Positions 6,546 to 23,223 of a DNA stretch of 23,223 nt are shown here, in pieces. Every line of letters starts with the position of its first letter. Position 1 is the first letter of the stretch. The stretch spans positions 1 to 23,223 of IMG/VR virus record IMGVR_UViG_3300008120_000643; one strand, given 5' to 3'. The stretch comes from a virus. Position numbers and translations under genes: made by a program. The notes below the pieces were generated by a model that was not told where the DNA came from, ran no database searches, and saw nothing but the letters and a program-made list of their open reading frames with translations.

Positions 6546-6576
6546 AGGGCGGGGTCAAACCCGCCCTTTGTTGTTT
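6546..6576 (+). terminator. Intrinsic terminator
   Basis: AGGGCGGG-GTCAAA-CCCGCCCT forms a perfect 8-bp GC-rich stem followed by TTGTTGTTT. It ends the short transcript of the two membrane proteins. Confidence 0.88.
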
Positions 6577-6610
6577 CTAGGGTATTATTAAGGCAAAGAA
6601 GGAGACCCCC

Positions 6611-7041: not shown

Positions 7042-7043
7042 CT

Positions 7044-7541: not shown

Positions 7542-7543
7542 TT

Positions 7544-7837
7544 ATGAAATCACTCGGACCACTATACGTTGGAAAATTGCGCTACTGGCATAAGAAGTTG
7601 CTGCCCATAGTTGAGGTAGGCAATACGCAAGAGACAGATATGCCCTTTAGATTTGGTCATTGCCTTGTTTTCAGATTTCCCTTTACGACTCCTGGGTACT
7701 ACATTGGGGTCTTCTATAAAACTGTTAAAAACCCAGAGAACCTAACGGATGAAGATATTGACTTAATTATGGAGAAAGCGCTTAGAGCTAGAAAAGCCTG
7801 GTCTCCAGAGGACGGAGATTACGATGAATTTTTTTAA
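7544..7837 (+). CDS. Hypothetical protein
   Basis: 97 aa, starting two bases after the previous stop and overlapping the next gene by 14 bases. Aromatic-rich N-terminal half (YVGKLRYWHKKLLPIVEVG, PFTTPGYYIGVFYKT), acidic helical C-terminal half ending DGDYDEFF. No recognised motif. The start lacks a good ribosome-binding site, so coupling to the KTSC gene is likely. Confidence 0.65.
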   Translation: MKSLGPLYVGKLRYWHKKLLPIVEVGNTQETDMPFRFGHCLVFRFPFTTPGYYIGVFYKTVKNPENLTDEDIDLIMEKALRARKAWSPEDGDYDEFF

Positions 7838-8078
7838 GAAAAAGGCGCCTTGGACAAAGCCGTTTTCTGAACGGGTTGCCAAACGAGTGTCTAAGATTCC
7901 TACGGGTGAGTTGGTAATGTGGGCAGACCAGGCTCTATTTGATTTGGGCCGTTGTTTAAATAGTTATGAGAAGTCTAAAGATAAGTTATATCTAGAAGAA
8001 GCTTTGACTGGAGCAGAGGCCATCCATGCCGTGGTAAACGAGCTCCATATCCGTATGACCTCAAAAGCAGCCCTTTAA
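7824..8078 (+). CDS. Small helical protein upstream of terminase
   Basis: 84 aa, ATG preceded by GGAG. Basic N-terminus (MNFFKKKAPWTKPFSERVAKRVSK), then predicted helices (ELVMWADQALFDLGRCLNSY, LEEALTGAEAIHAVVNELHI). I recall similar short proteins next to terminase genes in other aquatic phages. No helix-turn-helix is evident, so a small-terminase role can be raised only from position and size. Confidence 0.68.
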   Translation: MNFFKKKAPWTKPFSERVAKRVSKIPTGELVMWADQALFDLGRCLNSYEKSKDKLYLEEALTGAEAIHAVVNELHIRMTSKAAL

Positions 8079-8084
8079 TAATAT

Positions 8085-8093
8085 TGCTACAAT
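8085..8093 (+). promoter_or_regulatory. Possible extended -10 promoter
   Basis: TGC-TACAAT fits the extended -10 pattern TGn-TATAAT with one mismatch. It lies just after the stop of the preceding gene, with no clear -35. Transcription would start near 8100. Confidence 0.35.
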
Positions 8094-8099
8094 TATGCT

Positions 8100-8167
8100 T
8101 GCCTCTCTTCCTTCTCTCCCGTGTGGCAGCGTGAGCCCTGGTTAATACCCAGGGCCACACGTTTTTT
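8100..8167 (+). ncRNA. Candidate small RNA with pyrimidine-rich 5' end
   Basis: Between the possible -10 at 8088-8093 and the T-run at 8162-8167 lies a ~68-base stretch. It starts with an 18-base pyrimidine run (CTCTCTTCCTTCTCTCCC) and ends in a branched terminator stem. A CU-rich 5' segment is complementary to GGAG-type ribosome-binding sites, so an antisense regulator of translation is conceivable. It may equally be just the terminator of the upstream operon plus a spacer. Confidence 0.3.
8120..8167 (+). terminator. Intrinsic terminator before the terminase gene
   Basis: Outer stem CGTGTG/CACACG (8120-8125 with 8156-8161) encloses an inner stem GCCCTGG/CCAGGGC (8135-8141 with 8149-8155), with a one-sided 9-base bulge, followed directly by TTTTTT. 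Confidence 0.85.
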
Positions 8168-8184
8168 AATAGACTGAGGATGCT

Positions 8185-9777
8185 ATGAACGAGACAGAAC
8201 TAGATTTTTTTGAAGAAGACGACGAGCTTATAGACGAAGACGATAGTGAACAGGACCTTCCCGAAGAGGAAGAAGATGAGCTGGATGAACTATCAAAAGA
8301 ATTTGTAGTAAAACTAATTGACCGTTGTGTTCAATTTATGTCTGCACTTGTCGGGCATGACCTCCACCCTTATCAACTTCCTCTTGCACGAAGAATTATT
8401 GAGTCTGTAATTATTAACGACGGTGAAGAAGTAACTGCACTCGCAGCACGTCAGTCAGGTAAATCAGAAACTATTGCTAACACTGTAGTTACGCTTATGG
8501 TTTTGTTGCCACGTCTTGCAAAGATGTACCCAGACTTACTTGGTAGGTTTAAAGATGGAATCTGGATTGGTATGTTTGCACCTGTTGAAGGTCAGGTTGA
8601 GACTCTGTTTGGCCGTTCAGTAAACAGATTAACTAGCGAACGTGCACTAGAGATTTTAGGTGACCCAGAGATTGACGACTCATTAGGTAAAGTGCCTGGA
8701 GTTACTCGTCAAATTAAATTAAAGAACTCAGGCTCGACGCTTATGATGATGACCGCTAACCCTCGTGCAAAGATTGAATCTAAGTCTTTCCATCTTATTA
8801 TTATTGACGAGTGCCAAGAGGCTGATGACTTTGTAGTGTCTAAGTCAATCTCTCCAATGCTTGCGTATTACTCGGGAACTATGGTTAAGACAGGTACACC
8901 TACTACGCACAAGAATAACTTCTACCGCTCTATCCAATTAAATAAACGTCGTCAGACCTCTAGAGGCATACGTCAGAATCATTTTGAGTGGGACTGGAAA
9001 GATGTTGCAAAGTGCAACGTTAACTACGGCAAGTTCATTAAAAAAGAAATGCTTCGTATTGGAGAAGACTCAGACGAGTTCCAGATGTCGTACAACTGCA
9101 AATGGTTGTTGGAGAGAGGAATGTTCGTTACATCAACCGTAATGGACGAGCTAGGAGACACCTCTCAAGAAGTTGTTCGCGCTTGGCACAGAACTCCTGT
9201 TGTAGTAGGTATTGACCCTGCACGTAAGATGGACTCCACAGTTGTTACGGTTGTGTGGGTAGACTGGGATAGGCCAGATGAGTTTGGATATTTTGACCAC
9301 CGAATACTAAATTGGATGGAGATACAAGGAGATGACTGGGAAGACCAATATTTTCAAATCGTTAACTTCCTCAATAATTACGATGTACTTGCTGTTGGCG
9401 TTGACGCTAACGGCGTGGGTGATGCGGTTGCACAAAGACTCAAGCTCCTCCTCCCAGGAGCAGAAGTACATGCCTTAGGCAGTAGCCAACCTGAACAATC
9501 AAAACGTTGGAAACATCTAAAGGCGTTAATTGACCGTCGTATGGTTGGTTGGCCAGCACACGCTAAAACTCGACGTTTACGTACCTGGAAGCGTTTTTAC
9601 CAGCAGATGACGGACCTTGAGACAAAGTTCACTGGCCCTAACTTTTTGGCACATGCGCCAGAAGAAGCCCACGCCCATGACGACTACGCCGACAGTTTGG
9701 CTATTGCTTGCTCGCTAACTATGGACCTGACAATGCCACAAGTCGAAGTTTCTAGCTCCCCGTTCTTTTCTAGATAA
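8185..9777 (+). CDS. terL: Terminase large subunit (packaging ATPase/nuclease)
   Basis: 530 aa. It cuts concatemeric DNA and pumps it into the prohead through the portal. The ATPase domain has Walker A ARQSGKS (K93), Walker B LIIIDE (D208-E209) and a TGTP coupling motif near 237. The RNase H-like nuclease has acidic residues in VVGIDPARKMD (D344), VGVDANG (D407) and HDDYADSLA (499-503). Length is normal for the family. An oddity is the N-terminal ~37-residue stretch that is mostly Asp/Glu (FFEEDDELIDEDD, LPEEEEDELDE). No small terminase is evident next to it. ATG is preceded by GAGG. Confidence 0.96.
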   Translation: MNETELDFFEEDDELIDEDDSEQDLPEEEEDELDELSKEFVVKLIDRCVQFMSALVGHDLHPYQLPLARRIIESVIINDGEEVTALAARQSGKSETIANTVVTLMVLLPRLAKMYPDLLGRFKDGIWIGMFAPVEGQVETLFGRSVNRLTSERALEILGDPEIDDSLGKVPGVTRQIKLKNSGSTLMMMTANPRAKIESKSFHLIIIDECQEADDFVVSKSISPMLAYYSGTMVKTGTPTTHKNNFYRSIQLNKRRQTSRGIRQNHFEWDWKDVAKCNVNYGKFIKKEMLRIGEDSDEFQMSYNCKWLLERGMFVTSTVMDELGDTSQEVVRAWHRTPVVVGIDPARKMDSTVVTVVWVDWDRPDEFGYFDHRILNWMEIQGDDWEDQYFQIVNFLNNYDVLAVGVDANGVGDAVAQRLKLLLPGAEVHALGSSQPEQSKRWKHLKALIDRRMVGWPAHAKTRRLRTWKRFYQQMTDLETKFTGPNFLAHAPEEAHAHDDYADSLAIACSLTMDLTMPQVEVSSSPFFSR

Positions 9778-9781
9778 ATAC

Positions 9782-9800
9782 GACTTTAGCCTGACTTTAG
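9782..9800 (+). repeat. Two tandem copies of GACTTTAG, 11-base spacing
   Basis: GACTTTAG at 9782-9789 and 9793-9800 in the leader between terminase and the next gene. The spacing is about one helical turn, as for a tandem protein-binding site, but two 8-mers could also occur by chance. Confidence 0.35.
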
Positions 9801-9844
9801 GTTAAATAAGTAGGAAACTTTTACCCGAGGCCCTCAACCTTTAT

Positions 9845-9850
9845 AAGGAG
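9845..9850 (+). promoter_or_regulatory. Strong ribosome binding site, T7-like
   Basis: AAGGAG followed by ATATATCT and ATG 9859 closely resembles the strong leader of T7 capsid mRNA, suggesting high expression of the downstream small protein. Confidence 0.6.
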
Positions 9851-9858
9851 ATATATCT

Positions 9859-10257
9859 ATGACAATCGCACCGGCACCGAAGTTCCCAGAACGTCCAGGT
9901 AGCGTATACGACCGCAAGATGGCAGGCGCTGTTCCAGGACAACGCGGCCCACTTCGTTTTGAAGAAGGACTTGCAACAGATACCGACATTCCACAGGAAT
10001 TTTCTAACGGAGCTGCACAGGGTTATATCCCAGCAGCTGGCCGTCCAAATCGCAATGCCCCTGTTCACACTAAGCCTGCAGCAGAAACAATGAAAGAGCG
10101 TGCTCACGTTGGTTCAGCAGCTTGGGTAGAAGCACCAAATACTCTTAAGGAGTTTGCTGGTGGTTCTTTCTCTGATTACGGCGCAAATGTTATCGAGGAA
10201 GTTTTCCGCGATGGCTCACATCAACAGCGTCTTAATCCAGCAGTAGTTCAGGACTAA
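9859..10257 (+). CDS. Hypothetical protein, probably abundant
   Basis: 132 aa, preceded by a very strong ribosome-binding site and followed immediately by a terminator. It is therefore a single well-translated gene between terminase and portal. The sequence is polar, Pro/Gly/Ala-rich and mostly without predicted helices (KFPERPGSVYDRKMAGAVPG, QGYIPAAGRPNRNAP), ending VVQD. No family recognised. Position and expression signals would suit a minor head or decoration protein, but this is inference. Confidence 0.75.
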   Translation: MTIAPAPKFPERPGSVYDRKMAGAVPGQRGPLRFEEGLATDTDIPQEFSNGAAQGYIPAAGRPNRNAPVHTKPAAETMKERAHVGSAAWVEAPNTLKEFAGGSFSDYGANVIEEVFRDGSHQQRLNPAVVQD

Positions 10258-10261
10258 TAAC

Positions 10262-10319
10262 GTTTCTTGCTCCCCCGTTTCTACGGCGAATACGTGGCGG
10301 GGGAGCTAAGAACTTTTTT
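10262..10319 (+). terminator. Intrinsic terminator with long loop
   Basis: GCTCCCCCG pairs with CGGGGGAGC across a 20-base loop. The flanking GTTTCTT and TAAGAAC extend the stem with one bulge, and TTTTTT follows directly. Confidence 0.75.
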
Positions 10320-10332
10320 GTAAAGGTAAGCA

Positions 10333-10644
10333 ATGGCACTTATTTCTGGTCGTTCCGTAACACAGGCACCAAAGCAGATTGCTGCTAACCCACGCCTATG
10401 GAACATGGTTACAACTCAAGCAAAGACCAGATTTCCTAAGTATCCATCTCCAGCAGCCGCTCACTGGGTTCACACCAAGTATGTTCAAATGGGCGGAAAG
10501 TTTGTCGATTCCAAGAAGCAGATTGACCCTCGTTTTAGGGACTACGCTGAGGAAAAGAAAGAAAAGAAAGAAAAAGAAGCCAAGGCAAAGGTGACCCACA
10601 AAGTAGGTCGCGGAAACATCAAGGGCGAGACAGTAAAGAAGTAG
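10333..10644 (+). CDS. Conserved basic phage protein
   Basis: 103 aa, AAAGG upstream of ATG. A compact domain (NPRLWNMVTTQAKTRFPKYP, SPAAAHWVHTKYVQMGGKFV) is followed by a Lys/Glu-rich charged helix (EEKKEKKEKEAKAK) and a basic tail. The WxM...AKxRFxKYPSPAAxxWVHxxYxxxGG pattern is familiar to me from aquatic phage genomes next to portal genes, without a known function. The net positive charge suggests DNA contact. Confidence 0.72.
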   Translation: MALISGRSVTQAPKQIAANPRLWNMVTTQAKTRFPKYPSPAAAHWVHTKYVQMGGKFVDSKKQIDPRFRDYAEEKKEKKEKEAKAKVTHKVGRGNIKGETVKK

Positions 10645-10670
10645 TCTGAAAAAACGTCTTTTTTGTTTGG

Positions 10671-10679
10671 TGCTAATAT
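10671..10679 (+). promoter_or_regulatory. Possible extended -10 before the portal gene
   Basis: TGC-TAATAT fits TGn plus a -10 hexamer. It would place transcription start at or next to ATG 10686, the first codon of a nine-codon frame. No -35 is visible. Confidence 0.3.
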
Positions 10680-10685
10680 TTGGCT

Positions 10686-10715
10686 ATGAAGTTTAACGAG
10701 AGGATTTATTGGTGA
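10686..10715 (+). CDS. Nine-codon leader frame coupled to the portal gene
   Basis: ATG 10686 opens MKFNERIYW, and its TGA (10713-10715) overlaps the portal GTG in a GTGA junction. The portal ribosome-binding site lies inside it. It might couple translation of the portal to a leader, or be chance. Confidence 0.25.
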   Translation: MKFNERIYW

Positions 10716-12430
10716 GCGGAAGCGGTTTAGATTTCTCACCTCCGTCGTATAGAGCGGCCTCTTCAGACTTAACAATCTCTATCTCTCCATTAGGACTTGT
10801 AGAGCTTGCTGACGAAGAGTTTGAAGTTCACGGCCCACGCCTCAATCGTTATTCACTTAACTGGGCTATGTATCTTGGCCATCATTATTCTTATCGCCGT
10901 CAAACAGGCGAATCACAAATGGTATTGAATTATTACCGTGCATTCACAGATTTTATTCTTAACTTCACATTTGGCAAGGGAGTCCAATTCCGAAGCCCAA
11001 AGCAGACAGAGGCTATTGTTCCAGACTTACTGGAAAGAGTTTGGGAAGTAGATAACAACAAGGCTTCTGTTCTTTGGGAAATCGGTCAGCAAGGAGGAGT
11101 ATCTGGTGATTGCTTTATCAAAGTTGCGTATGAAGAACCTTGGGTTGACCCTGCGGGCCGTCAGCATCCAGGCCGCGTGCGTATTCTCCCTCTTAACTCC
11201 AGTTTTTGCTTCCCAGAATTCCACCCTCACGACCGCGAGCGCCTTATTAGGTTTAAGCTTAAGTATCGTTTTTGGGGCACCAGTTTGGAAGGCACTCGCC
11301 AAGTATTTACTTACACCGAAATTTTAACTGACGATGTTATTGAAGAGTACATCAATGATGAGCTTATTGACTCTCGTCCTAATCCGCTTGGCACTATCCC
11401 TGTTGTACATATTCCGAACGTTCGTATCAGTGGTTCTCCTTGGGGTCTATCTGATTGCAATGACATTATTCCTATTAACCGCACTTATAACGAAACTGCT
11501 ACTGACATCGCCGACATTGTTAATTATCACGCTGCGCCGGTCACAGTTATCATTGGAGCGAAAGCGTCACAACTTGAAAAAGGCGCAAACAAAGTCTGGG
11601 GTGGACTACCAAAAGACGCAAAGGTAGAAAACCTAGAAGGCGGAGCTCAGGGTCTAAAAGGCGCTATGGACTTCCTAGCAATGATGAAGAAGTCTATGCA
11701 CGAAATGGTTGGTGTTCCAGAGACCGCTCTTGGTCAGGCTCAGCCAATCTCTAATACATCGGGTGTTGCTTTATCTATTCAATTCCAGCCTTTGATGAAC
11801 CGCTACCATCAAAAGATTATTCAATACGCTCGTGGGTTAGAGCTAGTAAACGAACTCATCCTTCTTAACCTTGCTATTAAAGAACCTGAGGCTATGCAGG
11901 TTAACCCAGGTACTCGCTCAGCCCCTCTAAAGGACGGTCAGGTCCCAGTTCTTGATATTAATGACCCGCTGACTTACCGCTCATACGTTCATTTCCCAGC
12001 GCCTCTACCGCTTGATAAGTTGATTGCACTAAACGAAGTTCAATCACTGATGTCTCTAGGCCTTGAGTCTAAAGAAGGCGCCCTTCGTTCTCTTGGCGAA
12101 GAGTTCCCAGACCAGAAGCTTATGGAGATTCGTCAAGAACTTATTGACGATGCTAAGGCAGACGGCGCTCTTAATCTTGTAAAGACACAGATTGCAAATG
12201 AAATTGCAAGCCTGACTGGAATGATGCCTGGCCCAGATGGAATGTCTGCGCCTATGGAAGGTCCTGAAGGACAACCTATTCCAGGAAATCCTGGCGCCGC
12301 TACTCCGCTTTTGGATGAAGCGCAAATGTTCGTTCAAGCAGCAGAGTCTGGCTTGAGACAGCGCCTTGTAGTTGAAGCTTACGGTACAAAAATCCCACAA
12401 AGGAGAGTGCCGGAAGAATACGAAAAATAA
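10712..12430 (+). CDS. Portal protein (SPP1 gp6-like family)
   Basis: About 572 aa. It forms the dodecameric ring at one vertex of the head, through which DNA enters and leaves. GTG 10712 is chosen because GAGAGGA (10698-10704) sits seven bases before it; an in-frame TTG at 10709 is possible. Recognisable portal features are the N-terminal WAMYLGHHYSYRRQTGESQM with NYYRAFTDFILNFTFGKGV, the wing region (PLGTIPVVHIPNVR, PWGLSDCNDI), the long helix region (MKKSMHEMVGVPETALGQAQ) and SNTSGVALSIQFQPLM. Length fits the family. It follows the terminase as is usual, with two small genes inserted. Confidence 0.92.
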   Translation: MSGSGLDFSPPSYRAASSDLTISISPLGLVELADEEFEVHGPRLNRYSLNWAMYLGHHYSYRRQTGESQMVLNYYRAFTDFILNFTFGKGVQFRSPKQTEAIVPDLLERVWEVDNNKASVLWEIGQQGGVSGDCFIKVAYEEPWVDPAGRQHPGRVRILPLNSSFCFPEFHPHDRERLIRFKLKYRFWGTSLEGTRQVFTYTEILTDDVIEEYINDELIDSRPNPLGTIPVVHIPNVRISGSPWGLSDCNDIIPINRTYNETATDIADIVNYHAAPVTVIIGAKASQLEKGANKVWGGLPKDAKVENLEGGAQGLKGAMDFLAMMKKSMHEMVGVPETALGQAQPISNTSGVALSIQFQPLMNRYHQKIIQYARGLELVNELILLNLAIKEPEAMQVNPGTRSAPLKDGQVPVLDINDPLTYRSYVHFPAPLPLDKLIALNEVQSLMSLGLESKEGALRSLGEEFPDQKLMEIRQELIDDAKADGALNLVKTQIANEIASLTGMMPGPDGMSAPMEGPEGQPIPGNPGAATPLLDEAQMFVQAAESGLRQRLVVEAYGTKIPQRRVPEEYEK

Positions 12431-12544
12431 ACAGTTTAGGCTGACAACTCAACGTTGTAAGGCCAAAATTGTTTACTAAACATATCGGTTGGTCATACGT
12501 GCTCTCACTTCGGAAAACGACCCAGAGGAATAAAGGATATACGC

Positions 12545-13315
12545 ATGGAAACTGCAGAAGTAAACGCTGAAGCTTTCGCAGCTGAAGCAGGAACAACACC
12601 AGTGGTTGCTGACGTTGACTCATCAACTGCTACAACTAAACAAAAATTTTATACAGAAGACGACCTCGCAAAGGTTCGGTCTCAGGAAAAGGAAAAACTT
12701 TATCCTCAGATTGATAAGCTCAAGGAAGAAGTTGATTTCTTGAAGCGTGAACGCGAGGAGTCAGCCGCTCGTAAGGCCGCAGAAGAAGCAGAAATTTCTG
12801 CTCGTGAAGCAGCCAAGCTTAAGGAACAAGAAGAATCCGAACTAGAAGTTCGTGAACTCCTTAAGAAGAAAGAAACTGAGTGGCAGGAGCAGCTGGAGCG
12901 CGAACGTCAGGAACGTGAAACAGCTTTTGCACTACTGGAACGTGAACGTACTTTTGCAGAACTGCAAAGCTATCGAGCTCAAAAGCTTGATACAGAGCGC
13001 GACAACATCATGCCCGAGCTCGTTGATTTGATTAGTGGAAACACTAAGGAAGAAATTGACGCAAGCATCGAAGGCTTGAAAGAGCGCACATCTAGAATTC
13101 TCGAATCGGCGCAATCTGCAATGCAGAATGCGAGACGAGAGATGACGGGGACAAGGGCAACTTTGCCTCCGGCCGGACCATTGGAAACTAATTCGGAGCA
13201 ACGTAACTTCACGGCGCAAGATATTGCGTCAATGTCGATGGACGAATACGCAAAATATCGTAGTCGTCTCTTGAGCCCAGGTGCTCAGGGGAAGACAAAG
13301 GGACTGTTCGGGTAA
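12545..13315 (+). CDS. Capsid scaffolding protein
   Basis: 256 aa, ATG preceded by AAAGGA. Strongly charged coiled coil from about residue 40 to 145 (LKEEVDFLKREREESAARKA, EVRELLKKKETEWQEQLERE). The N-terminal segment is acidic and disordered, and the C-terminus is a Pro/Gly-containing region ending KTKGLFG. Position directly between portal and major capsid genes plus this composition is typical of scaffolds (GP20-like families), which shape the prohead and leave or are degraded. No protease motif is seen here, so release by exit is likely. Confidence 0.88.
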   Translation: METAEVNAEAFAAEAGTTPVVADVDSSTATTKQKFYTEDDLAKVRSQEKEKLYPQIDKLKEEVDFLKREREESAARKAAEEAEISAREAAKLKEQEESELEVRELLKKKETEWQEQLERERQERETAFALLERERTFAELQSYRAQKLDTERDNIMPELVDLISGNTKEEIDASIEGLKERTSRILESAQSAMQNARREMTGTRATLPPAGPLETNSEQRNFTAQDIASMSMDEYAKYRSRLLSPGAQGKTKGLFG

Positions 13316-13354
13316 CCCTTAAAAATCCAAATCCAAACTAAGGAGTCTAACTAA

Positions 13355-14425
13355 ATGGCATCTGGTATTACGGGTACCGGCAATCTCGCTGCGGCCCCTA
13401 CAGCCTATTCAGGTACCAACACTCAGCTGACTCAAGCGATTCAGACAATCTGGTCAAAGGAAATCCTTTTCCAGGCAATGCCTATCCTTCGCTTTGAGCA
13501 GTTCGCAGTTAAGAAGACAGAACTCGGTGTTGCACCAGGTCTTCAAATTAACTTCATGCGTTACAACAACCTCGGCTTTGCTTCAAGCCTCGTCGAAGGT
13601 GTTCGCATGCAGACCAACGCTCTTACAGCACAGCAATTCTCAATCACAGTAACTGAGCATGGTTATGCTCTTGCTGTTTCAGAGCTTTTGCTCAACGCTT
13701 CATTCGATGACGTAATGGCTTCTGCCTCACGTCTTCTCGGTCGTAACATGGCTATCTATCTTGACCAGCTATCACGCGACACACTATATGCTGCAACTTC
13801 AACCATCTACGGTGAAGACCGCAGCTCACTCTCAGCTGTTAACAACTGGTACGCAGATGGAACAGTAGCGGCAAGCCGTGCAGCAATGACCGGCACCTAC
13901 TTCTTGTCTCCAAAGACCGTTAAGGACGCAGTAGAGACACTCGCAACCAAGAACATCCCAAGGCTCGGCGAAACATACGTTGCCTTCGTTCACCCACACC
14001 AGAGCCGTAAGCTCCGTGACAATCCAGAATTTATTGAAGTCACGAAGTACGCTGCTCCAGGTAACTTCATGCTTGGTGAAATCGGACGTTTGTACGATTG
14101 CGTATTCATTGAGACCACTCAGGTTCTCAAGGTGGCTGGCGGTGCTGGTACTTCTTACACAGCAGATTCAACAGTCGCTAACCCAACAGTTACCCCTGGC
14201 GGAGGTTATGTAACTCCTGCAACAAAGACCGGTAACGGTGGCTCAGACCGCTATGCAGCTCTCTTCATCGGAGACAACGCATTCGGTCACGCAATCTCTC
14301 TTCCAGTCGAGCTCCGCGATGGCGGTATCCTTGACTTCGGTCGTGAGCATGCTCTTGCTTGGTACTCAATCTTCGGTCTTGGTCTAATCACTGACCAGGC
14401 TGTTGTTATTGCAGAAACCAACTAA
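13355..14425 (+). CDS. Major capsid protein (N4-gp56 family)
   Basis: 356 aa, AAGGAG before ATG. It builds the icosahedral shell with the HK97 fold. Hallmarks of the N4-gp56-type family are the N-terminal YSGTNTQLTQAIQTIWSKEI with LRFEQFAVKK, the central LVEGVRMQ with QFSITVTEHGYALAVSEL, ETYVAFVHPHQSRKL and NFMLGEIGRLYDCVFIETTQ. It ends with FGLGLITDQAVVIAETN. Normal length. Its own leader and a following hairpin suggest a separately adjusted, highly expressed message. Confidence 0.95.
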   Translation: MASGITGTGNLAAAPTAYSGTNTQLTQAIQTIWSKEILFQAMPILRFEQFAVKKTELGVAPGLQINFMRYNNLGFASSLVEGVRMQTNALTAQQFSITVTEHGYALAVSELLLNASFDDVMASASRLLGRNMAIYLDQLSRDTLYAATSTIYGEDRSSLSAVNNWYADGTVAASRAAMTGTYFLSPKTVKDAVETLATKNIPRLGETYVAFVHPHQSRKLRDNPEFIEVTKYAAPGNFMLGEIGRLYDCVFIETTQVLKVAGGAGTSYTADSTVANPTVTPGGGYVTPATKTGNGGSDRYAALFIGDNAFGHAISLPVELRDGGILDFGREHALAWYSIFGLGLITDQAVVIAETN

Positions 14426-14442
14426 ACAATTTAATAAGGTAG

Positions 14443-14464
14443 GGTGGGGCCGCAAGGCCCCACC
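14443..14464 (+). terminator. GC-rich hairpin with GNRA loop after the capsid gene
   Basis: GGTGGGGCC-GCAA-GGCCCCACC forms a perfect 9-bp stem closed by a GNRA tetraloop, optionally extended by TAG/CTA. There is no T-run, so it may be a partial terminator or an mRNA 3'-end protector. Confidence 0.5.
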
Positions 14465-14505
14465 GCTATCATTTACACACAGCTAATAAACCGGAGGATA
14501 CAAAA

Positions 14506-14868
14506 GTGTCAAAGAAATCACCAACGGACGTCACAGGACGTTCACGCGATGAACTCGCCAATCAGTTTGCTGAGCAGCAAGTAGAGACTGCAGCCAAGAT
14601 GTCAATGGCAACGGCAGAAGCAGCCGTAAGATTAGAAACAGAAGTTATCGATGCTACAAAGCCTGACCGCCAAACAGTAATTGTTGAGCCTGTCACTAAG
14701 CTTGGTAAGCAAGAAGATACAGTAGTAATTCGAGTAGTAGAGAACATTGACTCAATGACCTTGGGCGCTGGAAATAACTACACATTCAAGGTTGGTCAGA
14801 AGTACGAAGTGACCCGTGCTGTAGCCGAACATCTAAAAGAAAAAGGCTATCTAGCAGCAAATATCTAA
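14506..14868 (+). CDS. Conserved phage protein, probable head/neck component
   Basis: 120 aa, GTG start preceded by GGAGG. The N-terminal half is helical (RSRDELANQFAEQQVETAAK). The C-terminal half is a small beta domain: IRVVENIDSMTLGAGNNYTF, KVGQKYEVTRAVAEHL, ending EKGYLAANI. The MTLGAGNNYTFKxGxxYxVxxxVAxHLxEKGYL pattern is widespread in phages right after the major capsid gene and lacks an agreed function. A head-tail joining or decoration role is inferred from position. Confidence 0.78.
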   Translation: MSKKSPTDVTGRSRDELANQFAEQQVETAAKMSMATAEAAVRLETEVIDATKPDRQTVIVEPVTKLGKQEDTVVIRVVENIDSMTLGAGNNYTFKVGQKYEVTRAVAEHLKEKGYLAANI

Positions 14869-14880
14869 GTCTTAGATTGG

Positions 14881-14914
14881 CGAAGCAGCGGGTAAGTAGC
14901 CCGCTGTTTCGTTT
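14881..14914 (+). terminator. Probable intrinsic terminator
   Basis: CGAAGCAGCGGG-TAAGTAG-CCCGCTGTTTCG forms a 12-bp stem with one G-T wobble, followed by a short TTT. Confidence 0.65.
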
Positions 14915-14971
14915 ATCAAGATTTTTTGGTAGTAGCCGATACCATTGTGTAAGCGATGTTAGGAGTGGTAA

Positions 14972-16030
14972 GTGGCTGTTCTTTCAGACTTAGTCTCTAG
15001 AGTAAGACTAGAGCTAGGCGACCTACCTAAGCAGTTTACCTATACCGCCACAGGCGATGGAACTAATAAAGACTTTGACTTAAAGTTCAAACCTGTCGAG
15101 CCAACTACTTTAGTAGTGACCATCAACAACGTGGCTCAGACAACCCCTGCCAACTACAGCCTTGAAAAAGACTTGGGCATCATTCACTTTGTCAACGCCC
15201 CAGCCAACAACGCAGCTATTAAAGTTGTTGGAACTTCATATCGTTATTTTAGCGATAGCGACCTTGAGCTTTTTATTAATACCGCAGTAGAACAGCACAC
15301 ATACGAACGCACAGATGGTCAGGGAAGCCAGATGACCCTGCGCCTTATGCCTGCGGTTGAAGATTACCCTCTAGCTATCCTTGCAACAATTGAAGCTCTT
15401 TGGGCTTTGGCAACGGATGCTTCTTTTGATATTAATATCTTTGCACCAGACGGTGTAACAATTCCTCGCTCTGAGCGTTTCCATCAGTTGTCTAACATGA
15501 TTCAACAGAGACAACAGCAATATAAAGATTTGTGCTCTGCCCTTAACATCGGATTGTGGCGTCTTGAAATGGGTACGCTACGTCGTGTTAGCCGCAAAAC
15601 CAATAAACTTGTACCTATGTACTTGGCACAAGAAATTGACGACTCTCGTAAGCCAGAGCGTGTATACATTCAAAACGACCTCAAGGGACGCAAGCCTATG
15701 CCTTCATACGCTGGCGTTTACGATATCTCTCTATACCAAGGCGATTCATGGTCTGGTGAGTTTGATTTCCCATTTGATGTCACCGTTCTTGACTTCAAAG
15801 CTCAGATTAGAACCTATCCAAATTCACCAGCAATTTATGCAACGTTTAGCATTACTAAGTTTGACGCCGCTAACGGACGTATCCGTTTAACATTAAGCCC
15901 AGCAGCTACTGCGTACCTACCAGCACGAGCTTTCTGGGATTTGCAAGCAACCAGTTCCGTAGACCCTACCTTTGAACAGACCTATGTTCGTGGGCAGGTG
16001 TTCGTAACCCAACAAGTAACGGTGGATTAA
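14972..16030 (+). CDS. Probable head-tail connector (adaptor) with C-terminal beta domain
   Basis: 352 aa, GTG preceded by AGGAG. The N-terminus (SDLVSRVRLELGDLPKQF) is adaptor-like. Next come a beta insert (residues ~25-85), helices (DLELFINTAVEQHTYERT), and the segment LWALATDASFDINIFAPDGV with a helical stretch to about 200. The C-terminal ~115 residues form a separate beta domain starting DISLYQGDSWSGEFDF and ending VRGQVFVTQQVT, of the kind seen in fibre-attachment proteins. Following the capsid genes and preceding fibres, it suits a neck protein that also docks fibres. No enzymatic motif. Role moderately certain. Confidence 0.72.
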   Translation: MAVLSDLVSRVRLELGDLPKQFTYTATGDGTNKDFDLKFKPVEPTTLVVTINNVAQTTPANYSLEKDLGIIHFVNAPANNAAIKVVGTSYRYFSDSDLELFINTAVEQHTYERTDGQGSQMTLRLMPAVEDYPLAILATIEALWALATDASFDINIFAPDGVTIPRSERFHQLSNMIQQRQQQYKDLCSALNIGLWRLEMGTLRRVSRKTNKLVPMYLAQEIDDSRKPERVYIQNDLKGRKPMPSYAGVYDISLYQGDSWSGEFDFPFDVTVLDFKAQIRTYPNSPAIYATFSITKFDAANGRIRLTLSPAATAYLPARAFWDLQATSSVDPTFEQTYVRGQVFVTQQVTVD

Positions 16031-16031
16031 T

Positions 16032-16334
16032 ATGAGTACGTCTATTCCAGTCAATAGCCCAATTGTTGTTACGGTTACTCCACCACCAGGACCTTCGGTA
16101 ACTTTAAATGAAATAACAGTTGGGGGCATAAATCAGCCCGCAGTGGCGTATCATCATGTACAAGGGACTGCCTCGGCTGTGTGGAATATAACCCATTACC
16201 TTGGCTGGTATCCGAACGTTACTGTCCAAGATTCGGGCGGGTCTATCGTAGAGGGAGAAATTACCTATACGAGCTCAAATACGTTAACCGTAACGTTTAG
16301 CGGGGCGTTTCGCGGAGACGCCTATCTTTCTTAA
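16032..16334 (+). CDS. Small tail/fibre-associated beta-domain protein
   Basis: 100 aa, ATG one base after the previous stop. Pro-rich N-terminus, then a beta domain: HHVQGTASAVWNITHYLGWY, PNVTVQDSGGSIVEGEITYT, ending TVTFSGAFRGDAYLS. This module is very common in phage tail and fibre proteins (H-x-Q-x-x-A...W-x-I-x-H-x-L-G-W-x-P-N-V-T-V...VVTFSxAFxGxAYLS). Probably a virion protein at the tail or an adaptor for fibres. Confidence 0.8.
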   Translation: MSTSIPVNSPIVVTVTPPPGPSVTLNEITVGGINQPAVAYHHVQGTASAVWNITHYLGWYPNVTVQDSGGSIVEGEITYTSSNTLTVTFSGAFRGDAYLS

Positions 16335-16344
16335 GGAGAGTTAG

Positions 16345-16521
16345 ATGGCACGTAAATTTTTAACGTCAATTGATTTGGCGAAAAATGAATTACAAAATGC
16401 AGTAATTCAAAATCTGGCGGCAAACCCTTCAAGCCCAATTCTGGGTCAGGTTTACTTCAACACCGTCGCATCAACATCCTTGATGGTGCCACCCTTACCA
16501 CTACAGAACTTAACTATGTAG
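16345..16521 (+). pseudogene. Tail fibre gene A, 5' fragment (frame broken)
   Basis: AAGGAG precedes ATG 16345. The first 40 residues ([20 protein letters not shown], ending ILGQVYFNT) are the standard N-terminus of phage fibre proteins that attach to the tail. After YFNT the frame turns to nonsense and stops at TAG 16519. At that point intact relatives continue with an YVWNGTxW-type segment, as in the gene at 17736 (GDLYFNTAIKALYVWNGTVW). That segment appears to be missing, and fibre-like sequence resumes in another frame from 16464. One gene, 16345-17736, is inferred. Confidence 0.75.
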
Positions 16522-17423
16522 ATGGCGTTACCTCTTCTATCCAGGCTCAGTTAGACACCAAATCTCCTTCTAACAACCCAACCTTTACTGGCACCGTAAC
16601 TCTTGACACTGGTGTCAACCTTGTATTTGAAGGCCAAACCGCAAATGCCTTTGAACTTACTCTTACTGCTGGAGACCCAACAGATGACAGAGTAGTAACT
16701 CTTCCAGACCTTACCACCACACTTGTTGGTCGTGACACAGTTGACACTCTTACCAACAAGACAATTACAAGCCCATCTGTATCTGGCCTGTACTTGTCAG
16801 ATGCCTCAATTGTATTTGAAGGCTCAACCACAGATAACTTTGAAACAACTCTTAGCGTTGTTGACCCAACGGCAGACCGCACCATCTATCTGCCAAACGC
16901 TAACGGTACCCTTGCTCGTCTAGAAGACAAGCTACATGACTTTGCTCTTGCCACAGCATCTGTAAATCTTAATAACCAGAAGATTACAAACCTTGCTGAC
17001 CCAGTAGACCCACAAGACGCAGCTAACAAGAGATATGTTGATAGTGCAGTTGCTGGTCTTAACTGGAAGCAAGCAGCACACTTAATTGCTCTTGCTAACG
17101 TTCCTCTAACAGGAAATACCGGAACCGTTGTAATTGACGGACACTCCGCTCTTGATACCGCTGAAAATAACTACCGTATCTTGCTTACCGGTCAGACAAC
17201 AGATACTGAAAATGGTATCTATGTTTACAACGATAACGGCACAACTTATACCTTTACTCGTCCAACTGATGCAGATACTTACCAAGAGCTTGTTGGTGCT
17301 TCTGTCTTTATCATGGAAGGTACGGTTTATGGCTCTACCTCATGGGTACAGTCCAATCACTATCTAACATCTTTTGCTAGCCAGGACTGGGCTCAGTTCT
17401 CAGGAGCTAGCACCTATAGGTAA
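16464..17423 (+). pseudogene. Tail fibre gene A, central fragment
   Basis: An open frame without a usable start near its beginning. It reads [20 protein letters not shown], then VFEG...FETTLSVVDPTADRTIYLP repeats and NKRYVDSAVAGLNWKQAAHL. It ends TSFASQDWAQFSGASTYR before TAA. These are standard fibre-shaft motifs. At 17418 the typical STYxAGNGL joint is broken: about five bases appear to be missing, and NGLVANGNIFDVGAG continues in the next frame. The fragment is thus flanked by frame breaks on both sides. Confidence 0.75.
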
Positions 17424-17736
17424 CGGTCTTGTTGCCAACGGCAACATCTTTGATGTTGGTGCTGGAGACGGTATCCTTTCACAGGCTAACGCTGTTGCAA
17501 TTGACCGCACAGTAGTTGTAACTAAGTACGCAGCTAACATTGGAGACGGCTCAGCTACCTCCTACACAGTTACCCACAACTTGAACACCCGCGATGTGAT
17601 TGTAAGCATCTACGACAACGCCTCTCCTTACGCTGAGGTCATGGCAGATGTAGAGCACACCACTACTAACTCAATCACTATCCTGTTCTCCGTGGCTCCA
17701 ACTACTGACAAGTACAGGGTCGTAGTCCACGCATAA
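17419..17736 (+). pseudogene. Tail fibre gene A, 3' fragment
   Basis: Homologous sequence starts at GNGLVANGNIFDVGAGDG and ends at TAA 17734-17736. It contains a beta domain with the ATSYTVTHNLNTRDVIVSIY and NSITILFSVAPTTDKYRVVV motifs found at fibre C-termini. An ATG at 17374 opens the same frame, but the residues before 17419 are out-of-frame reading of the central fragment. The stop overlaps the next gene (TAATG), so the 3' boundary is that of a normal gene. Confidence 0.75.
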
Positions 17737-18068
17737 TGAGTCGCTTAAATCTATCACCGGTCAATATCCCCGCTTTAGCGGCGGCTCCGACCACTCCTAC
17801 CATTCGGATAGGTGACCTTTATTTCAATACAGCAATAAAGGCGCTTTACGTATGGAACGGAACTGTTTGGTCTGAAGCTGGTGGTGGCGTAACTGTCTCT
17901 GGTACCGAACCTACAACTAACCTTCGTGAAGGTCTATTGTGGTTTGATAGCACTACAGATGCTCTTCTTGTTTATTACGACGGCGAGTTCGTTGAAGTTG
18001 GTGGTAGCGGAGGCACTGGTACAGCGGCTTCTGCTGATTTAACCTCTGCCTGGTTCTTGGGGGTCTAA
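17736..18068 (+). CDS. Small tail fibre/attachment protein B
   Basis: 110 aa, TAATG overlaps at both ends. Begins MSRLNLSPVNIPALAAAPTT and contains two repeats of a short beta motif: GDLYFNTAIKALYVWNGTVW and GLLWFDSTTDALLVYYDGEF. The G-xx-(Y/W)F(N/D)(T/S)-xx-xAL-x-V-(W/Y)-(N/D)G motif is the usual linker in fibre proteins. Probably part of the fibre apparatus. Unlike its neighbours it is intact. Confidence 0.78.
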   Translation: MSRLNLSPVNIPALAAAPTTPTIRIGDLYFNTAIKALYVWNGTVWSEAGGGVTVSGTEPTTNLREGLLWFDSTTDALLVYYDGEFVEVGGSGGTGTAASADLTSAWFLGV

Positions 18069-18238
18069 TGGCCGTCCAAAGAATGGGTATTGCTAACCCA
18101 GCCTCCAACACAAACACTTTAATTCATACAGCTGCAGCCAGCTATCTTTGTTCAGTATTAGCAACAAATAAGGGCGCCACGGCTTCTACTGTGCGGGCTT
18201 GGGTAGTTCCATCAGGTGCAACCCTGGCTTCTCAATAG
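18068..18238 (+). pseudogene. Tail protein C, 5' fragment (paralogue of 21399-21797)
   Basis: ATG in a TAATG overlap. MAVQRMGIANPASNTNTLIH through VRAWVVPSGA aligns with MAISRLAVSNPSATTDTLIY through IRVWVVPFGQ of the intact protein at 21399. It then stops at TAG 18236. Relative to the paralogue about 15-18 residues are absent at this point, and the rest of the domain continues one frame over. Confidence 0.72.
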
Positions 18239-18467
18239 ATTTGCTATCTCTGTTGGGGATACTGTTTACGTGTCAGCTACCACAGCCGACATTTCCTTTT
18301 CTTTAAACGGCATTTATGACTCTTCAGCCTCTATTGATTCACATATCCTGCAGACCACAAATGTCCACGGTATTGCCAATACCGCTAATTTAGTGACCAC
18401 ATCTACTACCAATGCCCTGAACGACCGCGTAATTGCGCTAGAATTGGGCTTGGGGATATTTGATTAG
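18231..18467 (+). pseudogene. Tail protein C, 3' fragment
   Basis: Resumes as NRFAISVGDTVYVSATTADI, matching FRFPVTPNDKVYVRASTADI of the paralogue at 21399. It ends GLGIFD before TAG 18465. The frame could formally start at an ATG (18216), but that codon lies in the other frame's coding region. Together with the 5' fragment it represents one gene interrupted by a deletion that is not a multiple of three. Confidence 0.68.
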
Positions 18468-18475
18468 GAGATAAG

Positions 18476-18847
18476 ATGCCAAACTACACAAGCCTGGAAA
18501 CCCAGGTTACCGCAATCAAGAGTGAAATCTCCTCTTCTCTTGCAGCCAGCGCCTATAGTGCACAAGACCTTGTCTATGTAGCAAAAGCTCTTGAAGCCCT
18601 CAGCCATGTAGTAGCTCCAGACGGTGTTTCTAATATTACGGTAAACGATAATATTTATTTGGGAACAACCGCTGAATCATTTGCAACTGCGGCTGCTCTT
18701 ACAAACCCAACTTTAGTTGTCACAGCAAACGCTAATGATTATGCTCAAATTGCGTTTAGCAACAGAAACTCAGGCTCTGACGCGTCCACAGATATTATTT
18801 TGTACTCAAACAATCTGAGGCTGGAAACCTTGACCAAGGAAACCTAG
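18476..18847 (+). pseudogene. Tail fibre gene D, 5' fragment (paralogue of 21824-end)
   Basis: GGAG before ATG. MPNYTSLETQVTAIKSEISS begins like the intact fibre at 21824, and ...DASTDIILYSNN matches SSTDVIAYANN there. Immediately after, about 40 residues present in the paralogue (GTDSDGWIDMG...IFMSAP) are missing. The frame reads nonsense to TAG 18845, while EAGNLDQGNLVFATGD continues in another frame. Confidence 0.75.
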
Positions 18848-19464
18848 TCTTTGCAACTGGTGACTCTGGTACACAGAACAAGATTATTTTTGCCGCCGGT
18901 GGTCTAGCTTCTGACAACACTCAGATGGTTATTACTCCAGACGAAAACGTTCACATTGAAATTGCTACTCCTTCTACATCGCCAACCACTGGTGCTCTTA
19001 CAGTCGTAGGTGGCGTGGGTATTCAAGGCGACGTCAACATTGATGGTTCAATTACATTTGGTGGCGCGGGTACAACTGTGGAAACTGCAAACATTGCAGT
19101 TACTGACCCACTTATCTTTACTGGTAACCAGAACCAAGGCGATGCTCTTGACCTAGGTTTTGTTGGAGAGTACGCAAACACTATCTCAACAATTACCAAA
19201 GCTATTTCTAATAAGGCTTTAACATCAAACGTAGCTACTCTAACAACATCTACAACTCATGGATTCTCCGCCGGAGACATCGTAGTTGTAACAGGTGTAG
19301 ACGCTACATTTAACGGGACTCATTACATCACAGCAGTCCCGACAACAACTACCTTCACATTTGCTAAGACTGCATCAAACGTAACCTCGGCCTCCGCCAC
19401 AGGTTCAGCCTGTACAGGTTGGCGCTTTAACAGCTGCCTCAGCAACTATCGGGGATGTATCTAA
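18813..19464 (+). pseudogene. Tail fibre gene D, central fragment
   Basis: From 18813 the frame reads EAGNLDQGNLVFATGDSGTQ, ...VHIEIATPSTSPTTGALTVV, ...ITFGGAGTTVETANIAV, and a beta module ending TFAKTASNVTSASATGSA. This aligns along its length with the intact fibre at 21824. An ATG at 18925 lies inside it. After ATGSA the frame becomes nonsense and stops at 19464. About 45 residues found in the paralogue are absent at this joint. Confidence 0.75.
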
Positions 19465-20095
19465 TACAGAGCTTCAATATGTTAACGGCGTAACTTCTGC
19501 TATCCAGACTCAGCTAAATGCTAAAGCTCCTTTAGCCTCACCAACCTTTACCGGAACAGTAACGGTCCCAGCTACTATCACAGCTCCTTCTTCGGTGGTT
19601 TTAACTCTACCTACTACTACATCCACACTTGCTACAACTGCTGATATTAGTACTGCTGTTTCTACTTATGCTCCAGCTCTAAGCGCAACTCTTACCCGTC
19701 CAGTATTCGTCTCACCACTAGAAACTATTACTGTGTCTGCTACAGCTGCTACTGGAACAGTTGCCGTAGACGTGGTTACTTCTGGTGCTAAATACTTTAC
19801 ATCTAACGCTTCAGCCGACTGGACCTTCAATTTCCGCGGAGATGGCACAACTACTCTTAACTCTTTGATGTCTAACGGCCAAGCTATTACAGTAGCTTTC
19901 TTGGTAACTAATGGTGCTACAGCTTATAAGCCAACAGTATTTCAGGTAGATGGGTCAGCTGTTACACCTAAGTGGAACGGCGGAAATGCGCCTGCTGCGG
20001 GTAATGCAAACTCTATTGACTCATACACATTTACAATTATTAAAACCGCATCCGCAACATTTACCGTACTCGGCGCCCAATCTAAGTTTGCATAG
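19418..20095 (+). pseudogene. Tail fibre gene D, 3' fragment
   Basis: Resumes as VGALTAASATIGDVSNTELQ, matching VAGLTASSLTVGDVS of the paralogue at its right-hand end. It then has the fibre motif YVNGVTSAIQTQLNAKAPLA and a C-terminal domain (DVVTSGAKYFTSNASADWTF ... DGTTTLNSLMSNGQAITVAF ... TFTVLGAQSKFA). That domain is a known type of fibre tip. It ends normally at TAG 20093-20095, eight bases before the adhesin gene. Confidence 0.78.
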
Positions 20096-20103
20096 GAGTT
20101 TTA

Positions 20104-21009
20104 ATGCCATACATTGAAACTATTAGAAATATGCTTACACCGTTTGGTGGCATTATTAGCCTTGCCTCATCAACTGGCGGAACAATTACAACTGCTGGTG
20201 GCTACCGTATACATACGTTTTCTACAACGGGTAGTTCTACGTTTACAGCAGGTGCTATAGGTACTGTTGAATATTTAATTCTTGCGGGCGGTGGTGGCGG
20301 AGGAGCTGCTGGTGGAACTGATGGTTCTGGAGGAGGTGGCGCTGGTGGACTACGCACAGGTACATTTACAGTAGCACGTACAGATTATCCAATTGTTGTT
20401 GGTGCTGGCGCAGCATCTTTCCCCTCTGGAGCTGTTGGGCACGACCCTTCCCTATTTAATGGCGGAAACTCTTCAGCTTTTTCTTTAACATCTTTTGGTG
20501 GCGGAAGCGCTTCCTCTGAATCAGGTATTTCTCGTCAAGCACAAAACGGTGGTTGTGGCGGAGGCGGAGGCGGTTACTCTGGTGGTTTAGGAACAGGATT
20601 TGCTGGGCCCCCTCGTCAAGGATTTGACGGAGGTGCAACTGCTGCTCCAGGTGACGGTGGCGGTGGTGGTACTAGTGCTCCTGGAGGTAACGGAAGAAGT
20701 GCAAATGGCTCTACTCCAGAAAGAGCTGGTGGTGCTGGAACTGCAAACTCTATTTCAGGTACATCAGTAACTTACGGTGGTGGTGGCGGAGCTTCAGGCG
20801 ACCCACGCACTGGCGGAGGTGCTGGCGGTGCTGGTGGAGCAGGCGGCGGTGGTCGTGGAATGAACGTTAACTCTGGAGACTCTCCAGGAAATGGAACCAA
20901 TAATCTTGGTGGCGGAGGTGGCGGTGCAGCAGGTTCAAATGCTTCCGGAGTTCTTCGTGGCTCAGGCGCTGGTGGTTCTGGCATTGTGATTGTTAGGTAC
21001 CCTATCTAA
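20104..21009 (+). CDS. Glycine-rich tail adhesin (receptor-binding tip candidate)
   Basis: 301 aa, AGGAG before ATG. The N-terminal ~60 residues are a beta segment (GGYRIHTFSTTGSSTFT). From YLILAGGGGGGAAGG onward Gly makes up nearly half of the residues, with runs of four to six Gly. It closes with the typical GSGAGGSGIVIVRYPI. This start/end pattern defines the glycine-rich domain found in phage and environmental proteins. Poly-Gly sandwiches form the receptor-binding tips of T4-like adhesins (gp38 type). Directly downstream of a fibre gene, it likely sits at the fibre tip and contacts the host surface. Fold assignment is by analogy. Confidence 0.82.
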   Translation: MPYIETIRNMLTPFGGIISLASSTGGTITTAGGYRIHTFSTTGSSTFTAGAIGTVEYLILAGGGGGGAAGGTDGSGGGGAGGLRTGTFTVARTDYPIVVGAGAASFPSGAVGHDPSLFNGGNSSAFSLTSFGGGSASSESGISRQAQNGGCGGGGGGYSGGLGTGFAGPPRQGFDGGATAAPGDGGGGGTSAPGGNGRSANGSTPERAGGAGTANSISGTSVTYGGGGGASGDPRTGGGAGGAGGAGGGGRGMNVNSGDSPGNGTNNLGGGGGGAAGSNASGVLRGSGAGGSGIVIVRYPI

Positions 21010-21010
21010 C

Positions 21011-21427
21011 ATGAGATTTAAATCGACGCATAATATCTTTAAAGATTTTGGTGAAGTATTTGATATTAACTGGATGGATTCCGATAAGGTTGTCTATCCA
21101 CCAAAGTATGACTGGGATTATTCCCGTGAGCTTCAAATTGAAGATGTAGATATCTGGGAAGTTATCTACGAACAAGGTGGAGCAGTTGGCGTATATGCAG
21201 CTTGGTGTCCATATGCTGAGTTCTACTTAGTACGAGTAGGCTGGCAGAAGGAAGAACAAGGTTGGGGCGCAGAAACTTACTATGGACCAGGAGCTCAGCA
21301 AAGAGTTCAAGCCCGTATGAAAGAGTTAGACATTCCGTTCTTTACAAATAAAATCTGGGTAGACCCAGAAGACATGTGGCTATATAAAGGAGTAGACAGT
21401 GGCAATCTCAAGACTCGCAGTATCTAA
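21011..21427 (+). CDS. Conserved phage protein, tail region
   Basis: 138 aa from ATG 21011, one base after the adhesin stop. An in-frame TTG at 20990 would overlap the adhesin and has no better site. The sequence is acidic and aromatic-rich (VYPPKYDWDYSREL, WEVIYEQGGAVGVYAAWCPY, GWGAETYYGPGAQQRVQARM). It looks like a compact alpha/beta domain, unlike the low-complexity fibre proteins around it. Similar proteins are known to me from aquatic phages without function. It might be a chaperone or tail component; no motif decides. It overlaps the next gene by 29 bases. Confidence 0.7.
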   Translation: MRFKSTHNIFKDFGEVFDINWMDSDKVVYPPKYDWDYSRELQIEDVDIWEVIYEQGGAVGVYAAWCPYAEFYLVRVGWQKEEQGWGAETYYGPGAQQRVQARMKELDIPFFTNKIWVDPEDMWLYKGVDSGNLKTRSI

Positions 21428-21797
21428 TCCCAGCGCTACTACAGATACCCTCATCTATACACGTTCTGGCTCTCGTGATGCTTTGGCCTCAATTATTGCT
21501 ACCAATAAGTCTTCTACAGCCGCAACTATCCGTGTATGGGTTGTGCCATTTGGACAAGACGCTGCTCCCGCCAATCATGCAACTATTGCCTACAACTCTC
21601 CTGTTGAGGGCAACAACTCTCTTGAGACTTTTCGCTTTCCAGTGACCCCTAACGATAAAGTTTACGTAAGAGCCTCAACCGCAGATATTTCCTTTACCCT
21701 TTCAGGTATTGATAACACTAACGTCTCAGGGACGGAGTACGAGACCGTATTGGCTCTTGCCAATACAGCAATTATTTACGGTCTCATTGACCTATAA
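21399..21797 (+). CDS. Tail protein G (intact paralogue of 18068-18467)
   Basis: 132 aa; AAAGGAG precedes GTG 21399 and decides the start. A single beta domain: MAISRLAVSNPSATTDTLIY, ATIRVWVVPFGQDAAPANHA, NSLETFRFPVTPNDKVYVRA, STADISFTLSGI. It corresponds throughout to the broken gene at 18068, including the segment missing there. Like that copy it precedes a long fibre gene, so the two genes move or were duplicated as a pair. Probable fibre-associated virion protein. Confidence 0.78.
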   Translation: MAISRLAVSNPSATTDTLIYTRSGSRDALASIIATNKSSTAATIRVWVVPFGQDAAPANHATIAYNSPVEGNNSLETFRFPVTPNDKVYVRASTADISFTLSGIDNTNVSGTEYETVLALANTAIIYGLIDL

Positions 21798-21823
21798 TCA
21801 GGATAGACCGAAGGAGAACTTAG

Positions 21824-23223
21824 ATGCCGTTTACCCTAACAACGTTTGACGCCGCGCTTCAGGCTAAGCTGAACACTGCCTCTGTCAGCCTCAGTGCCCA
21901 GGATTACCTCCTTCTTACCAAAGCGGTACAGACCGCTATTTCAGTATCAGAGGGAGTTAATCTCCTTGACCTTAAGGGTTCTGCAAACGGCGTAGCTAGC
22001 CTTGATGCAAATGCTCAAGTTCCAGCAAACCAACTTATTAATGCGTTGCCTTCTCAATCAGGCAACTCAGGAGAACTCTTAACAACAAATGGTTCTACCG
22101 CATCGTGGACCGACTCTTTAACTCTTAATTCTGCACAATTTACTACTATCTATGTAGGAACTGGCGCTTTATCGTTTAACACCTCAGCCGCTCTTACCAG
22201 CGCAATGGCTGTATTTAATATTTCAAGTGCCGTTAACTCTTATGGTCAACTTGCTATTCATAACTCCACTTCCTCCTCTTCAACGGATGTAATTGCCTAC
22301 GCCAACAACGGAACAGACTCCGATGGTTGGATTGACATGGGTATTACCGGAGCAACGTTTAACTCCGCTACCTATGGAATCACTGGACCACATGACGGCT
22401 ACATCTTTATGTCAGCCCCTGCAGGAACAACCGGAGCTGGAAATCTTGTATTAGCAACTGGTGACAATGGAACTGATAACAAGATTATCTTTGCTGCTGG
22501 CGGTTACTCTTCTGGAACCACACAGATGGAGATTACTCCTGACGTAAACGTTCACATTGAAATTCCAACACCTTCTACATCCGCTACCACAGGTGCATTA
22601 ACAGTAGTCGGTGGAGTTGGTATTCAAGGAGATATGAACGTCCAAGGTGACGTAAACGTTCAAGGAACCATTACATTTGGTGGCGCTGGAACTACTGTAG
22701 AGACCTCAAACCTTTCAGTCACAGACCCGTTTGTATTTGTTGGAACTAACAACCAAGCCGACATTGTTGACCTTGCCTTTATTGGCGAGTATGCCTCTTC
22801 AGTATCTCCAATTGCTACAACTGTTAATAATAAAGCGCTTACCTCTAATGTAGCTACCCTTACAACCTCCGCAGCTCACAATTACCTAGCTGGAGATGTA
22901 GTAACTATTACGGGAGTAGACGCCACATTTAACGGCACCTTTAATATTATTGCTGTACCAACAGCAACCACATTTACATACGCAAAAACTGCTTCTAACG
23001 TTACCTCTGCTGCAGTATCCCCAACAGGAACAGCCACAGTAAATGCTCGCCGTAAGTTTGCAGGTGTTGCTCGTGATGCCTCTGATGGGGTAATCAAGGC
23101 GTTTAAAGATGCAACTACAAAGCCAACTTCTACTATTGATTTTTCAGAAGCTGGACTTGCATACGCTGATATGCGTGTAGCTGGACTTACCGCCTCTTCT
23201 CTAACTGTTGGCGATGTATCTTC
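21824..23223 (+). CDS. Long tail fibre protein H (partial at right edge)
   Basis: GAAGGAG before ATG 21824. The frame is open for 466 codons to the end of the window, so the C-terminus is missing. Fibre motifs in order: LNTASVSLSAQDYLLLTKAV; SANGVASLDANAQVP; GELLTTNGSTASWTDSLTLN; FMSAPAGTTGAGNLVLATGD; VHIEIPTPSTSATTGALTVV; ITFGGAGTTVETSNLSV; a beta module (GDVVTITGVDATFNGTFNII); VNARRKFAGVARDASDGVIK; ending VAGLTASSLTVGDVS. It is the intact counterpart of the broken gene D, with extra sequence between. A homotrimeric shaft is expected for this class. It lacks a stop here, so it is easily missed. Confidence 0.85.
   Translation, partial: MPFTLTTFDAALQAKLNTASVSLSAQDYLLLTKAVQTAISVSEGVNLLDLKGSANGVASLDANAQVPANQLINALPSQSGNSGELLTTNGSTASWTDSLTLNSAQFTTIYVGTGALSFNTSAALTSAMAVFNISSAVNSYGQLAIHNSTSSSSTDVIAYANNGTDSDGWIDMGITGATFNSATYGITGPHDGYIFMSAPAGTTGAGNLVLATGDNGTDNKIIFAAGGYSSGTTQMEITPDVNVHIEIPTPSTSATTGALTVVGGVGIQGDMNVQGDVNVQGTITFGGAGTTVETSNLSVTDPFVFVGTNNQADIVDLAFIGEYASSVSPIATTVNNKALTSNVATLTTSAAHNYLAGDVVTITGVDATFNGTFNIIAVPTATTFTYAKTASNVTSAAVSPTGTATVNARRKFAGVARDASDGVIKAFKDATTKPTSTIDFSEAGLAYADMRVAGLTASSLTVGDVS

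Follow-up and report, generated by a model that had tools for sequence, protein, structure and literature searches.

The window analyzed here, a virus contig of 23,223 bases, carries three structural genes whose reading frames are interrupted by clean losses of sequence, namely a head-decoration gene and the fibre genes C and D. Their broken frames are very probably an assembly fault and most likely do not exist in the phage. This explanation is favoured because the missing segments have a constant length in every relative, because the remaining pieces are normally selected, and because lesions of this type are demonstrable artefacts elsewhere. The assembly would have missed stretches of about 56-134 nt, with the flanking sequence joined bluntly in the contig. 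The cassette to which C and D belong is duplicated in the downstream genes G and H, and this duplication is ancient, older than the sampled phages, and ordinary for this phage family.

Missing segments and the state of the broken genes

The original prediction described the first copy of the cassette as broken by deletions and the second as intact. The frame-destroying deletions in C and D were recovered (56, 109, and 134 nt missing), but they are not confined to the cassette, as a further 76 and 5 nt, not noticed in the original prediction, are missing upstream in the head-decoration gene, which is unrelated to it (Table 1). Of the second copy, G is indeed intact, but the contig ends after 466 aa of H, which has approximately 640 aa in relatives (638-640 aa in L004 and L006).

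Table 1. Genes and junctions of the window, and positions of related features in other contigs
Feature	Sequence	Position	Strand	Description
Head-decoration/fibre gene	window	16345..17736	+	three pieces, two losses; precedes the fibre cassette; 490 aa in L042
Small structural gene	window	17736..18068	+	intact; tail fibre/virion PHROGs
Gene C, small fibre-associated protein	window	18068..18467	+	one loss; relatives mostly 151-152 aa
Gene D, long fibre protein	window	18476..20095	+	two losses; relatives mostly 612-637 aa
Gene E, glycine-rich protein (Gly_rich_2)	window	20104..21009	+	intact; PF21722 E=2.9e-19, score above curated cut-off; phrog_2295 E=1.8e-45
Gene F, conserved 138-aa protein	window	21011..21427	+	intact; relatives in 12 viral loci; no family match in Pfam or PHROG
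Gene G, C paralogue	window	21399..21797	+	intact, 132 aa; phrog_11338 E=8.7e-7; blastp match to C
Gene H, D paralogue	window	21824..23223	+	open up to the contig end, by which it is truncated
J0, head-decoration gene	window	16469..16470		76 nt missing; 10/10 spanning loci have exactly 76 nt more
J0b, head-decoration gene	window	17418..17419		5 nt missing vs L042; one close relative only
J1, gene C	window	18234..18237		56 nt missing; 4/4 spanning loci, all 56 nt
J2, gene D	window	18814..18815		109 nt missing; 9/9 spanning loci, all 109 nt
J3, gene D	window	19409..19411		134 nt missing; 5/5 spanning loci with resolvable junction, all 134 nt
Third D-like gene	L122	4562-6394		
Third D-like gene	L009	7542-9032		
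Third D-like gene	L126	8582-10072		
Third D-like gene	L124	8583-10088		
Blunt losses	L112	8538, 10555, 11256, 12282, 13920		
Blunt losses	L050	2044, 3939		
Blunt loss	L175	4520		
Blunt loss	L014	6801		
Blunt loss	L076	5854		
Blunt loss	L082	1190		

In an all-against-all survey, no locus was found that spans any of the four large junctions without the extra segment. The spanning loci (10, 4, 9, and 5 for J0 to J3) include some overlapping pieces of one contig, and those at J0 include some from the same contig. The nearest uncut contigs are L042, which is 90% identical upstream and 81-84% identical at the nucleotide level around J0-J1 and is one of the loci spanning J1, and L004/L006 with about 77-80% at J2 and J3. 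An exact 22-mer search for a near-identical contig spanning J2-J3 gave 0 hits in a searched set from which near records may be absent. The unbroken form is thus represented only by relatives with about 76-90% nucleotide identity, which counts against an assembly fault and leaves some room for a true inactivation.

None of the five loss lengths is a multiple of three, and the frame shifts at each loss in C and D, while the loss at J0b brings back the frame shifted at J0. Compensation of frames (76+5 and 109+134 are divisible by three) was considered and judged to be due to chance, as the stretch in between would still be misread. All five losses are packed into 3 kb. Compared with L042, none was found in the 10 kb upstream, where 10.46 kb are 90% identical and the alignment has just 9 gap positions, located between genes or compensating each other within six bases. 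No repeat was detected at the joint of J0 or J1, which speaks against a repeat-mediated loss. The window thus displays a mark of the blunt-join artefacts in other IMG/VR contigs, namely clean losses, tens to hundreds of nucleotides long, with no repeat at the joint. A loss of 5 nt, as at J0b, would be short for a scaffold gap and was seen against one relative, which counts against an assembly fault.

The eight pieces of the three broken genes do not contain a single stop codon in the proper frame. Compared with orthologues, dN/dS was 0.03-0.12 for the pieces of C and 0.03-0.22 for those of D, similar values being obtained for G/H versus L004/L006 (0.07-0.14); the major capsid protein (MCP) and portal genes gave 0.01-0.13. 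Judged from these substitution patterns, the pieces between the losses are under undiminished purifying selection and the genes are not decayed; neither the relaxed selection nor the point lesions between large losses that characterize pseudogenes were found. Furthermore, C or D occurs in about 25 other IMG/VR contigs and is broken in none of them; all frames that could be followed are single and open. Matches among them that looked split were pieces matching different paralogues, whereas in L034 and L256 the contig or locus end truncates the sequence.

These data bear on a recent true inactivation, by which the lineage would just have lost C, D, and the head-decoration gene through several deletions, their role passing to G-H. 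In its favour, the sequence as it stands has broken frames and contains a second paralogue. It is nevertheless unlikely, as the five lesions within 3 kb are all clean losses with neither a point stop nor a one-base indel among them, two of them affect a head-decoration gene without a second copy in the window, a broken relative is missing among the approximately 25 contigs, dN/dS is not relaxed, and the identical type of lesion is an artefact in other contigs. Very unlikely is its variant of a phage population that shut off one fibre cassette and the head-decoration gene in a single burst of deletions, relying on G-H.

The head-decoration gene is an intact single ORF in L042, L004, and L008, and the product of the L042 gene matches phrog_2647 (head decoration) with E=4.9e-62. 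In the window, this gene contains a 68-nt internal direct repeat (16621-16688 and 16810-16877, 75%) and shares with D a motif around 11 residues.

Relationship of the two fibre cassettes

C-D and G-H represent one gene pair present twice with its order preserved, the paralogues lying within 3.6 kb of each other, and alignments at nucleotide and protein level gave the collinear homology that had been predicted. D and H matched with a blastn E-value of 3e-76 over 22439-23010; their relatedness comprises a central block with 77% nucleotide identity (210 nt, no gaps) and 74% amino acid identity as well as short motifs. C and G share 43-50% of their amino acids, with blastp E-values of 1e-17 (C, residues 1-50) and 3e-28 (a whole C orthologue compared with G). 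The L004 orthologue of C matches phrog_11338 (tail fiber) with E=2.3e-4. A PDB sequence search with an intact D gave no match.

In agreement with the many silent differences noted before, dS was about 1.25 when the blocks of D and H were compared. In a tree of 18 C/G sequences, C and G are parted by a branch with 100/100 support, and C, G, D, and H of the window each group with their own orthologues from other phages, the D block alone being weakly resolved. Sliding identities revealed no D-H conversion tracts; no 60-nt tract was clearly above orthologue identity (maximum 0.83). Thus, the separation of C and G, the grouping with own orthologues, and the lack of recent conversion between D and H place the duplication before the sampled phages. 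This supports the view of the original prediction that the duplication is old and that selection has long acted on both copies.

In relatives, the order is fixed, with D (about 630 aa) after C (about 151 aa), and then G (about 130 aa) and H (638-805 aa). From this conservation, C-D is probably a working pair in the relatives, and both cassettes would be used by the phage rather than one serving as a silent store. One of the causes originally offered was a silent donor, with the broken C-D pair retained as a reservoir from which sequence recombines into G-H; the 210-nt block common to D and H and the broken frames of C-D speak for it. This explanation is contradicted by the intact, open C-D pair in all relatives, by the full separation of C and G and the grouping of D and H of the window with their own orthologues, by the failure to find D-H conversion tracts, and by losses that also strike a gene outside the cassette; we regard it as extremely improbable.

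Just as improbable is a repeat collapse in the strict sense, with the two cassettes collapsed onto each other during assembly. Assemblers fail at repeats, and the paralogues lie close together, but both copies have complete flanks and a complete gene order and match their own orthologues, the ends at J0 and J1 are free of repeats, and J0 and J0b are located in an unrelated gene. Chimeric D-H stretches, which a collapse should leave, were not found. Blunt joining across absent segments describes the fault better than the earlier wording of an assembly collapse. Of the three causes proposed, an assembly origin is strongly favoured in this altered form, whereas no positive evidence was obtained for recent inactivation.

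A third D-like fibre gene without a C/G partner is often located downstream in relatives (Table 1). The C-terminal domains of D (phrog_5906, matched by D of the window with E=2.2e-28) and H (phrog_21978) differ in the relatives, and that of the third copy differs as well, which suggests domain exchange at the fibre tips.

Blunt losses in other IMG/VR contigs

Among 61 fetched contigs having a near-identical partner (98% or more), six (L112, L014, L050, L076, L082, and L175) showed blunt losses of about 96-280 nt relative to the partner. Apart from these losses, each carrier shows 98-100% identity with an uncut contig of a different assembly. The clearest case is L112 (IMGVR_UViG_3300008108_001231), which is 100% identical to L111 (3300021594_000265) over 14.3 kb save five losses of approximately 280, 134, 133, 123, and 96 nt, one of them inside a capsid scaffolding gene identified by its position. 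As in the window, several blunt losses, mostly not multiples of three, are clustered over about 5 kb; unlike in the window, the uncut version is 100% identical, so that the fault can be demonstrated. Five deletions without any substitution in such genes are not expected from evolution.

All six carriers derive from the IMG identifiers 3300008107-3300008119 and 3300008266. They make up 6 of 10 contigs in the 33000081xx/8266 metagenome series compared with 0 of 51 elsewhere (P=4e-6, with the series defined after the carriers had been seen). The overlap at the joint was 0-1 nt in most carrier losses and up to 8 nt in L076. Because it is mostly this short, homologous recombination and repeat collapse do not explain the carrier joints. 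Loss of segments common to co-occurring strains, as in graph tangles, was also considered and rejected, as 21-mer sharing was not consistently above background for the missing segments. In 2.4 Mb of loci there were no N runs and only five single Ns. This would fit scaffold gaps whose N runs were lost, which is one example of a possible step. We infer that one faulty process produced both the window contig and the L112-type contigs. Our literature search found no papers naming the affected metagenome identifiers and nothing specific on scaffolding gaps.

The biological significance is minor, as phages commonly have paralogous fibre genes and the organism itself probably carries no broken copy. 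Caution is warranted with the IMG/VR 33000081xx/8266 series, which carries blunt, mostly frame-breaking losses unmarked by N runs. To any scan such losses will look like pseudogenes, split genes or loss of domains.

Phage type and comparison with relatives

The nearest IMG/VR relatives of the window are metagenome contigs. L004/L123 (IMGVR_UViG_3300042507_004253) has the same order of decoration gene, C, D, E, F, G, and H at 72-86% nucleotide identity, but C, D, and the decoration gene are all intact. L042 (IMGVR_UViG_3300042905_000445) shares 90% of the nucleotides over 6007-16469 and 84% over 16470-18237; in contrast to the window it is free of the losses at J0, J0b, and J1, and its contig stops inside C.

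Profile matches identified the terminase (phrog_2), portal (phrog_64), and major head protein (phrog_1357) of the window. The closest sequenced phages to its terminase, portal, and MCP are the Streptomyces phages LuckySocke, Alone3, BRock, pSt2308, and GiJojo, with amino acid identities of 70-71% for the MCP and 57-58% for the portal protein, the latter value being 58% in LuckySocke and BRock. For the whole of D no match was found in sequenced phages, only partial ones, e.g. to the C-terminal domain. Unlike the window, LuckySocke and BRock have other fibre or tailspike genes annotated at the corresponding place, but they share its order of terminase, portal, scaffold, and MCP. By homology and order of the terminase, portal, and MCP genes the window belongs to the BRock-like actinophage virion clusters. 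It is a fragment of a large virion gene cluster of the actinophage type, whose relatives include BRock, LuckySocke, and many metagenome phages.
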